Part shown: piece by piece, positions 20,503 to 46,075 of the stretch
How positions within the stretch are numbered: the stretch's first letter is position 1
How the letters are laid out: the number at the start of each line of letters is the position of its first letter
Notes under the pieces: generated by a model
The model's input: the letters and a program-made list of their open reading frames with translations, nothing else
Told to the model about the DNA's origin: nothing
Databases searched by the model: none
Made by a program: the position numbers and the translations under genes
NCBI GenBank assembly: GCA_027024155.1
Contig: JALVTE010000020.1
Span: 82,464-146,463, forward strand
DNA from: Campylobacteraceae bacterium
GTDB lineage: Bacteria > Campylobacterota > Campylobacteria > Campylobacterales > Sulfurovaceae
DNA length: 64,000 nt
Reading direction: 5' to 3'

Positions 20503-21771
20503 ATGGAAAATAAAATAGCAATTATAGGTCTAGGCTATGTAGGCTTACCCCTAGCCCACGCATTTAGCTTTAAATATAAAGTTGTAGGTTTAGATATTAA
20601 TACCGAAAGAATTAATGAATTAAAAAGTGGATTTGATAGAACTTTAGAGTTAAATGAAACTCAAGTAAAAGAGTGTATCGATAATGGTATGGAGTTTGTA
20701 TCAGATATCAATGAAGCTAAAGATTGTAATATTTTTATAGTAACTGTGCCAACTCCTATAAATGGAGAGAATGAGCCAGACTTAACACCTATAGAGAAAT
20801 CTACTGAAGCTATTGCTAAAGTGCTAAAAGAGGGCGATATTGTAATTTATGAGAGTACTGTTTACCCAGGTGTAACCGAAGAGGTTTGCGTGCCTATTTT
20901 AGAAAAACATAGTGGTTTAAAATTTAACGAAGATTTCTTCTGTGGTTATAGCCCTGAGCGAATTAATCCAGGAGATAAAGAACATACTGTTACAAAGATA
21001 CTTAAAATTACCTCTGGCTCTACCCCTGAAATTGCTAAAAAAGTTGATGATTTATATAAAAGCATAATTACTGCTGGAACTCACTTAGCTCCATCAATAA
21101 AAGTAGCAGAAGCAGCAAAAGTTATAGAAAACACTCAAAGAGATGTAAATATTGCCCTAATGAATGAGTTAGCAAAAATCTTTGATACTCTAAATATAGA
21201 TACAAATGCAGTAATAGAAGCTGCCGGTACAAAGTGGAACTTTATTAAACTTACCCCTGGTCTTGTAGGTGGGCACTGTATTGGTGTGGATCCATACTAT
21301 TTAACTTACAAAGCTCAATCTGTTGGATATACTCCAAACTTAATATTAGGTGCAAGACAGATAAACAACTCTATGAGTAAACTGATTGCTGATAAAGCAA
21401 TAAAATATATGGTTAAAGCAGATAAAAAACTTAACGGTGCAAATGTCTTAATATTGGGTGTAACTTTTAAAGAGAATTGTCCAGATATGCGTAACACAAA
21501 AGTAGTTGATATTATAAGTGAACTTAAAGATTATGAATGCAATGTAGATGTATACGATTATTGGGTAGATAGAAGTGATAAAGAGAACAAAGATATTCCA
21601 TTTATAGATGAGTTGCCATTAAACTCTAAGAAATATGACTCTATTATAGTTGCAGTAGGGCATGATAAGTTTAAAGATATAACTAAAGAGCAGTATGAGA
21701 GTATGAGTAACGGTGAGCCTATTGTTATAGATGTAAAAGGGATTGTTCAAAACCCAACTTGGAGGCTATAG
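20503..21771 (+). CDS. UDP-sugar 6-dehydrogenase (WbpA/TviB-like)
   Basis: [56 protein letters not shown]. Confidence 0.93.
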
Positions 21772-21773
21772 AG

Positions 21774-22733
21774 ATGAAAAATAATTTTGCATTAATAGGT
21801 GCTAGCGGATATATAGCACCAAGACATATGAAAGCGATAAAAGATACAGATAACGAGTTAATAGTAGCATATGACCCATACGATGGGATTGGTATCATGG
21901 ATTCCAACTTCCCACAAGCCGAGTTTTTTACAGAGGCAGAGAGATTTGAAGATTTTCTATCAAAGTGGCGACGAAGTGGGAAGAGTATGGACTTTGTAAG
22001 TATAATGACACCAAACTATCTTCATAAAAGCCATATTAGACTAGGCTTAGAGAATGGCTCAGATGTTATATGTGAAAAACCACTTGTTTTAAATCCAAGC
22101 GATATAGATGATTTAAAAGAGGTAGAGAACTTGACTGGAAAAAGAGTGTATAATATATTGCAACTTAGACTACACGAATCTATAATAGCACTAAAAGAAA
22201 AAGTAGCAAGAGAAATTAAAGAGAATCCAGAAAAGATATACGATATAGACTTAACTTACCTTACAAGTCGTGGCAAATGGTATTTTGAGAGTTGGAAAGG
22301 TAAAGAGGAAAAGAGTGGTGGCTTGGCATCAAATATAGGTGTACACTTTTACGATATGCTAACATGGATATTTGGAGATGTAGAAGAAAATATTGTACAT
22401 CTAAAAAAAGCAGATGCAAGTGCAGGATATTTTAGATTAAAAAATGCAAAAGTTAGATGGTTCTTAAGCGTTAATTATGATTATATACCTGAAGAGATAA
22501 AAGAAACAGGGCAGAGAACATATAGAAGCATAACAGTAGATGGAGAAGAAATAGAGTTTAGTGGTGGCTTTACAGAACTTCACACAAGAAGCTATGAAGA
22601 GATATTAAAGGGAAATGGCTTCGGCTTAGATGAAGCATATGGTAGTATAAAAACTGTATCTACTATTAGAAGTTTAGAGCCAATAGGTTTAGTTGGTGAT
22701 TATCATCCATTTTGTAAAAAGGTTATTAACTAA
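21774..22733 (+). CDS. Gfo/Idh/MocA oxidoreductase, WbpB-like (UDP-GlcNAcA 3-dehydrogenase)
   Basis: [56 protein letters not shown] 21759..22733 with more likely ATG at 21774. Confidence 0.9.
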
Positions 22734-43823: not shown

Positions 43824-43837
43824 GAGAGAATTTAACA

Positions 43838-46075
43838 ATGAACAAGATAAATATTATTCAAGAGAAAAAAGAGGTCAATATTTATATTGCAGTAGCATTT
43901 ATATTTAGTCTATTAGTACATTTAATTTGGGTATTTATGCATCATGGAGATCCTGCATATATGTGGAATGGTCAATTAATGATAAATACAAATGATGGAT
44001 ACTATTTCGCTAGTGGTGTAAAAAAAAGTCTTTATGGTATGTACCAATATAATCATATGGTTCCATCTTTTTTAGACAGAGGTTTGGTATTTGTAACTTT
44101 TATTATAGTAAAGTTTTTACACATACCATTAAATAGTGTAATGCTATATCTACCAACTGTTATATCTAGTTTAATTGTAATACCTTTAATACTTATTGGT
44201 AAATTATATAACAAGCCTTTATGGGGATTTTTTAGTGCACTTTTAGCTTCTGTGGCTTGGAGTTATTACAATAGAACGCTAGCAGGATATTATGATACCG
44301 ATATGTTTGCACTTATTATGCCATATTTTATTCTATACTATTTTTTAAAAGCTCTTAAAAGTTTTACTATTAAAGATATTTTTATTGCAACTATCTTTAT
44401 AGTTGTATACTCTTTCTTGTACCCACATGGCGTAAGTGTATCTAACGCTATGGTATTAATTTTTACTGTATATATACTTGTTTTTTATAGAAAAAATGAA
44501 AAAACTTATATCTTTTTAATTCTACTATTTATATCAGCTAGCCATATACCGCTACCTATTATTTATGAGATGACTATAAAAATTATACTATTATCTATAG
44601 CATTTTTCCTATTTACTAAAAAGAGTTTTAGTATGAAAGCAATAATATATGTATCTGCTATTACCTTTTTATATTTCTTAATTAGTAGTAATGCTTTAGA
44701 ATCTATTATCAATCGTGTTGTTAGCTATACGTCTACTGGTACTGTCACTGAAGGTTCTATTCATTTTTATGGAGTTTTACAAACAGTAAGTGAAGCATCA
44801 GGAATACCTTTTTTCCCAGACCCGAGAAATCCTTACGCTAATAATGTATCGTATAGAATTATTGGTTCAGTTATCGGCTTTTTTATGTTTATAATTGGAT
44901 ATGTAATATTAGTATTAAGAAAAAAAGAGTTTATATTAGCACTTCCACTTGTTGGTATAGGTCTTTTTGCTCATTGGGGAGGGCTTAGATTTACTATTTA
45001 TGCTGTGCCAATAGCTGCTTTAAGTGCTATATACTTACTTGGTTTAATTTCAGAATATATTCAAGGTAAGAAACTTCAATATATGTTTTTAATTTTGGCA
45101 ACTATTGCTTTAATTTATCCAAATGTTAAGCATGCATTAGAGGGTTACAATCCTGGTCCTGTATTTCAAAATAGTGAAGTAAAAGATTTAAATAGCTTAA
45201 AAAAAATATCAAACTCAAAAGATTATACATTAACTTGGTGGGATTATGGTTACCCTATATGGTACTATACAGAGACAAATACCTTAATAGATGGTGGAAA
45301 ACATAATAATGATAACTACATTATCTCTAAACTATTTTTATCTACTTCACCACAGTTTACATCAAATTTAGCAAGACTTAGTGTTGAAAAATATGCAAAA
45401 ACATATGATATTCTTAAAAAATACAAAAAAGATATAGATAAGGCTCCTCAAGAATATATTATGATAGATTCAAAAGGACATAACTTCATAAGACCTATTG
45501 CGGCTCCTATAATAAATACACTTTTACAAGAAGGGAAACCTAACCAAAAAGACCCAAATAAGTTTTTGCAAGATTTAGCTAGTAGTAACTACAAGCTACC
45601 TAAAAAAACAAGAGATATATACTTTTATGCTCCATTAAAAATGTTAAATATATTCCCAGTGATTACTAGATTTTCTAATATAGATTTAACTACAGGTAAA
45701 AAAGAGCGTAATATTTGGTTCTATCCTACTTATGCTTATAAGAAAGATGGTTCTTTAATTATCTTTAGAAATGGCATAGCATTTGATACTGCTAAAGGTA
45801 ATTTGATTTTGAATAATAGAGAGTTGCCTTTAAAATATTTAGTTGAGACAAAAATAGAGAGTAACGGAGATATTAAAGTTACTCCAAATAAATACCATGA
45901 TGATGGTAGATATGTACTATTGTATATTAAAAATTTAAATGAATTTATTGTTATGGATAATCAAACATTTGCTTCTAACTATGTACAAATGTTCCTACTA
46001 GGAAATTACGATAAAAGTTTGTTTGATTTAGTGGTTAAATCTCCATATAGCAGAGTCTATAAGTTAAAAAAATAG
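43838..46075 (+). CDS. pglB: PglB/STT3-type oligosaccharyltransferase
   Basis: 745 aa; N-terminal multi-TM, NDGYYFASG and GYYDTDMFAL acidic loops, WWDYG at 45236-45250 (residues 467-471), PglB-like C-terminal domain. Confidence 0.93.
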   Translation: MNKINIIQEKKEVNIYIAVAFIFSLLVHLIWVFMHHGDPAYMWNGQLMINTNDGYYFASGVKKSLYGMYQYNHMVPSFLDRGLVFVTFIIVKFLHIPLNSVMLYLPTVISSLIVIPLILIGKLYNKPLWGFFSALLASVAWSYYNRTLAGYYDTDMFALIMPYFILYYFLKALKSFTIKDIFIATIFIVVYSFLYPHGVSVSNAMVLIFTVYILVFYRKNEKTYIFLILLFISASHIPLPIIYEMTIKIILLSIAFFLFTKKSFSMKAIIYVSAITFLYFLISSNALESIINRVVSYTSTGTVTEGSIHFYGVLQTVSEASGIPFFPDPRNPYANNVSYRIIGSVIGFFMFIIGYVILVLRKKEFILALPLVGIGLFAHWGGLRFTIYAVPIAALSAIYLLGLISEYIQGKKLQYMFLILATIALIYPNVKHALEGYNPGPVFQNSEVKDLNSLKKISNSKDYTLTWWDYGYPIWYYTETNTLIDGGKHNNDNYIISKLFLSTSPQFTSNLARLSVEKYAKTYDILKKYKKDIDKAPQEYIMIDSKGHNFIRPIAAPIINTLLQEGKPNQKDPNKFLQDLASSNYKLPKKTRDIYFYAPLKMLNIFPVITRFSNIDLTTGKKERNIWFYPTYAYKKDGSLIIFRNGIAFDTAKGNLILNNRELPLKYLVETKIESNGDIKVTPNKYHDDGRYVLLYIKNLNEFIVMDNQTFASNYVQMFLLGNYDKSLFDLVVKSPYSRVYKLKK

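Follow-up and report, generated by a model that had tools for sequence, protein, structure and literature searches.

The 64,000-nucleotide stretch of DNA analysed here (the window) forms the right-hand end of a contig of 146 kb from the genome of a Campylobacteraceae bacterium, assembled to 2.15 Mb in 123 contigs at 97% completeness. Comparison with relatives from GTDB r220 placed the genome in the Sulfurovaceae next to Nitratifractor sp. S142_10, the PglB proteins of the two being 87% identical; the host is a deep-branching relative of Campylobacter. Between positions 20503 and 46075 of the window lies a glycan locus of 23 open reading frames (ORFs), all rightward and none with an internal stop, in which O-antigen-type assembly genes share a run with the oligosaccharyltransferase PglB. 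An earlier reading of the same DNA (the initial annotation) had the location, direction and named genes of this run right and its size, given as about 22 genes, slightly low. The genes are tightly packed; overlaps of at least 4 nucleotides (nt) are frequent, other neighbors lie a few bases apart, and the widest gap is 90 nt.

The run closes, as initially annotated, with a WbpV–WbpL–WbpM-like trio directly followed by PglB. The first member of the trio is a WbpV/WbjF-like short-chain dehydrogenase/reductase (40163–41032, forward strand, as are all genes of the run; PF01370, 92 bits) with UDP-D-QuiNAc or UDP-D-FucNAc as its predicted product; it precedes WbpL in the window and in the genomes G018, G070 and G209. 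WbpL itself (41032–41994; PF00953, 111 bits) is a polyprenyl-phosphate N-acetylhexosamine-1-phosphate transferase (PNPT) and the predicted initiator, in which the motifs DD, NLYNFLDGIDG, FMGDVGS and HRKH, common to MraY, are kept. A WbpM/PglF-type membrane-bound 4,6-dehydratase (42078–43823; PF02719, 393 bits) completes the trio, and PglB (43838–46075; NF050801, 463 bits) begins 14 nt past it as the final gene of the run.

All three STT3/PglB Pfam domains (PF02516, PF21436 and PF18527) were matched in the 745-residue open frame of PglB, which aligns over its full length to the Campylobacter lari PglB (5OGL; E-value 1e-102). The catalytic residues D53, D153, D155, E319 (the glutamate of external loop 5, EL5) and R384 are conserved, as is the WWD motif in the form WWDYG noted in the initial annotation, and R340 corresponds to C. 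lari R331, which recognizes the acidic residue at position −2. PglB was found in 79 of 90 high-quality genomes of the family, and a family search of the genome returned the window PglB as the sole STT3/PglB gene of the assembly. That this PglB is inactive or almost so, a relic retained through hitch-hiking, is highly improbable; the complete set of catalytic residues, the open frame, the 87% identity to the sister-species protein and the prevalence of PglB in the family all speak against it. A scan for promoters and terminators around PglB yielded nothing above chance.

We then asked which other components of a pgl pathway the genome encodes; the genome-wide absences given here rest on family profile searches of the 123-contig assembly. 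Only two PF00953 proteins are present, WbpL and a second protein that we considered as a WecA and rejected, as it is MraY, followed by MurD. There is no PglC (PF02397) in the run, and the one PF02397 protein genome-wide belongs to another polysaccharide locus at a distance of about 95 kb. It scores 86 bits and covers profile positions 34–154 only; the absent first 33 positions correspond to the membrane-helix part in PglC, and the PglCs that stand beside PglB in relatives match the full profile at about 215 bits. No PglK was found in the assembly. The top score of the PglK model, about 242–243 bits, belongs to the MsbA beside PglB, which was rejected as a PglK because it reaches 496 bits with the MsbA model and because true PglKs of relatives score 541–592 bits. 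With regard to the PglF–PglE–PglD set, WbpM represents the PglF family, an aminotransferase and an acetyltransferase sit with WbpA and WbpB, and WbpV takes the place of PglE/PglD by WbpM. The search for a separate locus with its own PglB, PglC and PglK, a check proposed in the initial annotation, thus came back empty: with one STT3, no PglK, one atypical bacterial sugar transferase (Bac_transf, PF02397) elsewhere, and WbpL and MraY as the only PNPTs, the assembly offers no ordinary initiator other than WbpL to feed PglB.

The locus with the atypical Bac_transf (C20:21744–37978; the gene itself at C20:30581–31405) also holds an adjacent Wzx and an exopolysaccharide (EPS)-like gene set; judged from sequence, it further includes FemAB-like and LicD-like genes and a putative aminoethylphosphonate transaminase with a cytidylyltransferase.

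Synteny in relatives was queried across about 200 related loci, comprising 124 PglB neighborhoods from the family and 80 named loci. For the family, an initiator was counted when it lay within 6.5 kb of PglB. PglC was found in 61 of the 124 neighborhoods, a WecA-like PNPT in 27 and a WbpL-like PNPT in 8, and none had both kinds of initiator; 19 lay near contig ends and 9 had no initiator nearby. Loosening the thresholds and widening the search to 15 kb left the result unchanged (61 PglC, 35 PNPT, 0 both). A Fisher test on the 0/61/35/9 division gave 8e-20, a value to be read cautiously as the species are related. The named loci behaved alike, with PglC in 39, a WecA-like PNPT in 16, a WbpL-like PNPT in 13 and both in none. 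On the PglB tree, a quick tree with some long branches, at least 11 switches between PglC and PNPT were mapped. The notion that the window arrangement is unique was accordingly discarded: PNPT–PglB pairing recurs across Campylobacterota, in 35 of the 124 family neighborhoods.

Two kinds of PNPT accompany PglB in these loci. The WbpL type extends to metagenome-assembled genomes labelled Sulfurospirillum and Helicobacteraceae; the order PglB–WbpL–PglF with 4-nt overlaps is frequent in several Campylobacterales, and locus L230 repeats the window order WbpV–WbpL–PglF/WbpM–PglB. The other kind, a WecA-like protein of about 332 residues and about 21% identity to the window WbpL, usually lies convergent to PglB and a few bases from it in several genera (for example L067, 16483–17481, and relatives, 28 genomes), and by sequence is a second PglB-linked PNPT type. 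The PglB-adjacent PNPTs of Sulfurovum, which we had considered as MraY, are these WecA-like proteins. In Sulfurovum-type genomes (L067, L070, L078, L090, L091 and L094), the pgl locus lies immediately upstream of an apparent gltX, and PglC-DEF, WbpL–PglF or the convergent PNPT seem to have been swapped at this one chromosomal site; the window locus occupies a different position. A PNPT–PglB pair is present in the complete genome G063 as well. PMC6025236 credits a characterization of an S. lithotrophicum PglB to Mills et al. 2016.

Genomes of the family that lack the PglC superfamily altogether offer a natural knock-out survey. Among those at least 85% complete, 26 had no PF02397 match (20 listed as such, 6 by elimination), and 15 of the 26 carry PglB. 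A PNPT stands beside PglB in 11 of these 15 (G068, G070, G073, G076, G081, G082, G091, G095, G136, G137 and G139), among them the 99% complete, two-contig genome G091 and Sulfurovum sp. AR (G137). In the remaining four, the PNPT lies within a few kb of PglB (G043), PglB and PNPT occupy two contig ends (G132), or WbpL is 54 kb away (G140); G041 is the only one of the 15 in which no PNPT was found for PglB. If PglB works in these genomes, a PNPT must be what initiates its glycan.

The flippase of the window is of the Wzx type (27204–28466; PF01943, 183 bits), in keeping with the initial annotation, and is the stronger of the two above-cut-off matches in the genome. PNPT-type loci of relatives contain either Wzx (G068, G070, G133 and G137) or PglK (G116 and G150), and a Wzx-like protein is found in several PglC-type loci; initiator and flippase are exchangeable modules. 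Wzx, PglK and Wzk have been described as functionally exchangeable (PMC2841628). Since Wzx occurs with PglC and PglK with PNPT, it is the PNPT, and not Wzx alone, that is the noteworthy part of the window locus.

Taken together, the single PglB with intact catalytic residues, the lack of PglK and of a normal PglC, and the recurrent replacement of PglC by PNPT beside PglB make it likely, at the level of sequence, that the run serves N-linked protein glycosylation on an O-antigen-type framework, with WbpL starting the glycan, Wzx flipping it and PglB transferring it. This scheme, framed in the initial annotation as an O-antigen-style system or one sharing a pool with lipopolysaccharide (LPS), gains support at the genomic level from the missing separate pgl locus and the recurrence in relatives. 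In the predicted pathway, WbpM and WbpV would make UDP-D-QuiNAc or UDP-D-FucNAc, and WbpL would load the corresponding 2-acetamido sugar phosphate on undecaprenyl phosphate. The cytoplasmic glycosyltransferases would lengthen the chain with further sugars, among them L-FucNAc and GlcNAc(3NAc)A; Wzx would flip the lipid-linked oligosaccharide, a GtrA/GtrB/GT-C set would probably add one further sugar on the periplasmic side, and PglB would transfer the glycan to asparagine in D/E-X-N-X-S/T; what each enzyme does, and which sugars are joined in which order, is predicted throughout. Seen so, the PNPT-started locus is a recurrent new variant of bacterial N-glycosylation and not a categorically new system. 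A limited search of the open-access literature found no report of natural PNPT-started N-glycosylation in bacteria.

Several observations weigh against this assignment. An assembly of 123 contigs at 97% completeness leaves room for a lost PglC. In G135, G140 and G209, close relatives of WbpL do not neighbor PglB, indicating that this WbpL subtype also serves PglB-free loci; the PglB of G135 lies separately and is accompanied by a WecA-like PNPT of its own. The linkage of WbpL and PglB might result only from co-residence in one hypervariable glycan locus. Alternatively, the run would be an O-antigen/LPS locus only, with PglB as a passenger that takes another glycan, for example one begun by the C20 Bac_transf and flipped by the second Wzx. 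The C20 locus does have its own initiator-like gene, Wzx and EPS-like gene set, and the GTC–GtrA–GtrB–WbpV–WbpL genes occur in G209 without an adjoining WbpM or PglB. We nevertheless regard a passenger PglB as unlikely: it is separated from WbpM by only 14 nt within the same run, PNPT–PglB pairs are seen repeatedly in several genera, in no case with PglC alongside, and the C20 Bac_transf is devoid of the N-terminal membrane-helix part of PglC.

If PglB does use the product of the run, as we favor, the same glycan may also reach LPS. Convergent to the run lies a lipid A-core cluster (46141–52833) that comprises MsbA, a GT92-like gene, a KpsS-like gene, LpxL, WaaL and a PglJ-like transferase; two bactofilin-like genes come next. 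Its MsbA (46141–47832, reverse strand) is the protein distinguished from PglK above, and its WaaL-like ligase (50580–51824, reverse strand; Wzy_C, PF04932, 48 bits against a cut-off of 31.7) is the only one in the genome. Neither Wzy nor Wzz was recognized in the window run, with the genome's Wzz in another locus, Wzy too diverse to exclude and one 629-residue gene of the run unclassified. In G070 (L086/L087), the order is Wzx, EpsG-type Wzy, FnlABC, GT4, WbpV, WbpL, PglB, WbpM and Wzz, with WaaL in a convergent cluster; PglB there sits inside a complete Wzx/Wzy/Wzz/WaaL O-antigen operon, between WbpL and WbpM. In the sister species Nitratifractor sp. S142_10 (G018; L085 and L045), one contig end has a Wzz fragment after WbpM and another has a Wzz-like C-terminus just ahead of PglB, so that the order WbpM–Wzz–PglB is likely.

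These arrangements bear on a shared pool, in which one undecaprenyl-pyrophosphate glycan would have two destinations, lipid A-core through the WaaL-like ligase and proteins through PglB, a possibility that extends the N-glycosylation assignment and does not oppose it. We regard the matter as evenly balanced. The sole WaaL-like gene of the genome in the convergent cluster, the G070 operon, Wzz at the sister locus and the precedent of Helicobacter pylori, whose LPS synthesis relies on WecA, WaaL and Wzk, a homolog of PglK (PMC2841628), are in its favor; the lack of a recognized Wzy or Wzz in the window run, with Wzz elsewhere in the genome, is not, and the Wzy_C gene could serve the polysaccharide of that other locus instead. 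More tentatively still, we propose that the entry enzyme of Campylobacterota N-glycosylation is swappable, at least two kinds of PNPT having repeatedly replaced PglC, and that in the window, sister and G070 lineages an O-antigen, sometimes as a polymer, may naturally be placed on asparagine by PglB from one pool for LPS and proteins.

The O-antigen locus of Pseudomonas aeruginosa O11 type has the order wbjBCDEF-wbpL-wbpM. The window follows it in FnlABC, an L-FucNAc-type transferase, the reductase, WbpL and WbpM, and G070 does so exactly save for PglB between WbpL and WbpM; the window departs from it in the terminal PglB, in a GtrABC-like insert and in having no Wzy or Wzz recognized in the run. 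The described PglB systems consulted here use the monotopic PglC, a start on di-N-acetylbacillosamine (diNAcBac) or N-acetylhexosamine (HexNAc), and PglK (PMC6025236). The window shares with the Campylobacter jejuni pathway the oligosaccharyltransferase family, its catalytic residues and the predicted undecaprenyl-pyrophosphate assembly, flipping and en bloc transfer (PMC6025236), and differs in having WbpL for PglC, Wzx for PglK, WbpM–WbpV for PglF–PglE–PglD and the extra GtrA/GtrB/GT-C-like set. The glycan of the Helicobacter pullorum PglB1 system likewise contains a Wbp-type uronic-acid HexNAc and has HexNAc as its reducing-end sugar, as predicted for the window, but the system uses PglC, PglA, PglJ, PglH and PglK over five loci, with no PNPT or Wzx implicated (PMC6025236). 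The WecA–Wzk–WaaL route of H. pylori (PMC2841628) shows that LPS and N-glycan pathways can exchange both PNPT-started glycans and PglK/Wzx flippases; its product is LPS and there is no PglB, making the window, where PglB is present, its mirror image. The N-glycan starters archaeal AglH and yeast Alg7 are PNPTs (PMC5222938). Archaeal and eukaryotic N-glycosylation thus resembles the window in that an initiator of the PNPT superfamily feeds an STT3-family transferase, yet the lipid and sugars are others and the relation is not vertical, the PNPT having been recruited within bacteria. In Escherichia coli, engineered protein glycan coupling (e.g., PMC3866875) has PglB put O-antigen on protein; in the window the combination is natural.

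A natural bacterial PNPT–PglB system, if true, would mean that initiation is independent of the transferase and that enzymes of the STT3 family can use glycans begun in either way. It would be a natural counterpart to protein-glycan coupling by engineering, and the scope of glycoengineering could grow with PglBs whose evolution took place alongside lipid-linked glycans of O-antigen type that do not contain bacillosamine. Whether such bacteria carry the same glycan on LPS and proteins becomes testable.

The remaining genes of the run agree with the families named in the initial annotation. Downstream of glmM–lspA, the run begins with four WbpA-, WbpB-, WbpD- and WbpE-like ORFs in this order (20503–24399), identified with NCBIfam and Pfam profiles (WbpA as TviB/NDP-sugar dehydrogenase, 530 bits) and predicted to synthesize UDP-GlcNAc(3NAc)A; the WbpB–D–E trio also lies upstream of PglB in several relatives. 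RmlA and RmlB (25287–27207; TIGR01207, 512 bits; TIGR01181, 472 bits), predicted to supply dTDP-4-keto-6-deoxyglucose, follow further on; neither RmlC nor RmlD is in the run. Past Wzx come four of the five cytoplasmic glycosyltransferases (28492–32500), in the order GT2, GT4, GT2, GT4 by profile. GC content is 21–24% across Wzx and these four genes and 27–36% in most others of the run, a drop as in mosaic O-antigen loci with an imported center. The predicted UDP-L-FucNAc genes FnlA/CapE, FnlB/CapF (WbcJ-like) and FnlC/CapG, a WecB-type epimerase (32487–35744; TIGR04130, 572 bits; NF047837, 496 bits; TIGR00236, 244 bits), precede the fifth transferase, the third GT4 by profile (35729–36952), which is WbuB/WbjE-like by its position beside them; its G070 ortholog is immediately 3′ of FnlABC.

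Two genes within the run had been overlooked in the initial annotation, a GtrA and a DNA ligase. GtrA (38843–39202; PF04138, 52 bits), a predicted flippase of polyprenyl-phosphate sugar, lies between a 629-residue protein with 10 transmembrane (TM) segments and a DE motif in its first loop (36949–38838) and a GtrB/AglJ-like polyprenyl-phosphate glycosyltransferase with two C-terminal TM segments (39189–40166; TIGR04182, 245 bits). By analogy with three-component periplasmic systems, of which PMC11127046 gives a recent example, the three may form a periplasmic sugar-adding set: GtrA- and GtrB-type genes are both present, and the third member has the TM segments and DE motif without a family match. 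A putative GT-C-like periplasmic glycosyltransferase by its position beside GtrA and GtrB, the 629-residue protein gave no Pfam or other family match and nothing in a PDB search. AlphaFold with its one homolog (G209, same context, 54% identity) returned an unusable model with a mean predicted local distance difference test (pLDDT) score of 35. G209 (L268/L269), from a different family of the order, holds GTC–GtrA–GtrB–WbpV–WbpL with FnlABC and a Wzx-like gene, and no WbpM or PglB beside WbpL; it looks like the same glycan module in a plain O-antigen locus. The ATP-dependent DNA ligase (24396–25196; NF006592, 354 bits) is of the periplasmic type with a signal-like hydrophobic N-terminus; it overlaps WbpE by 4 nt, has no obvious tie to glycan synthesis and is probably unrelated to the glycan.

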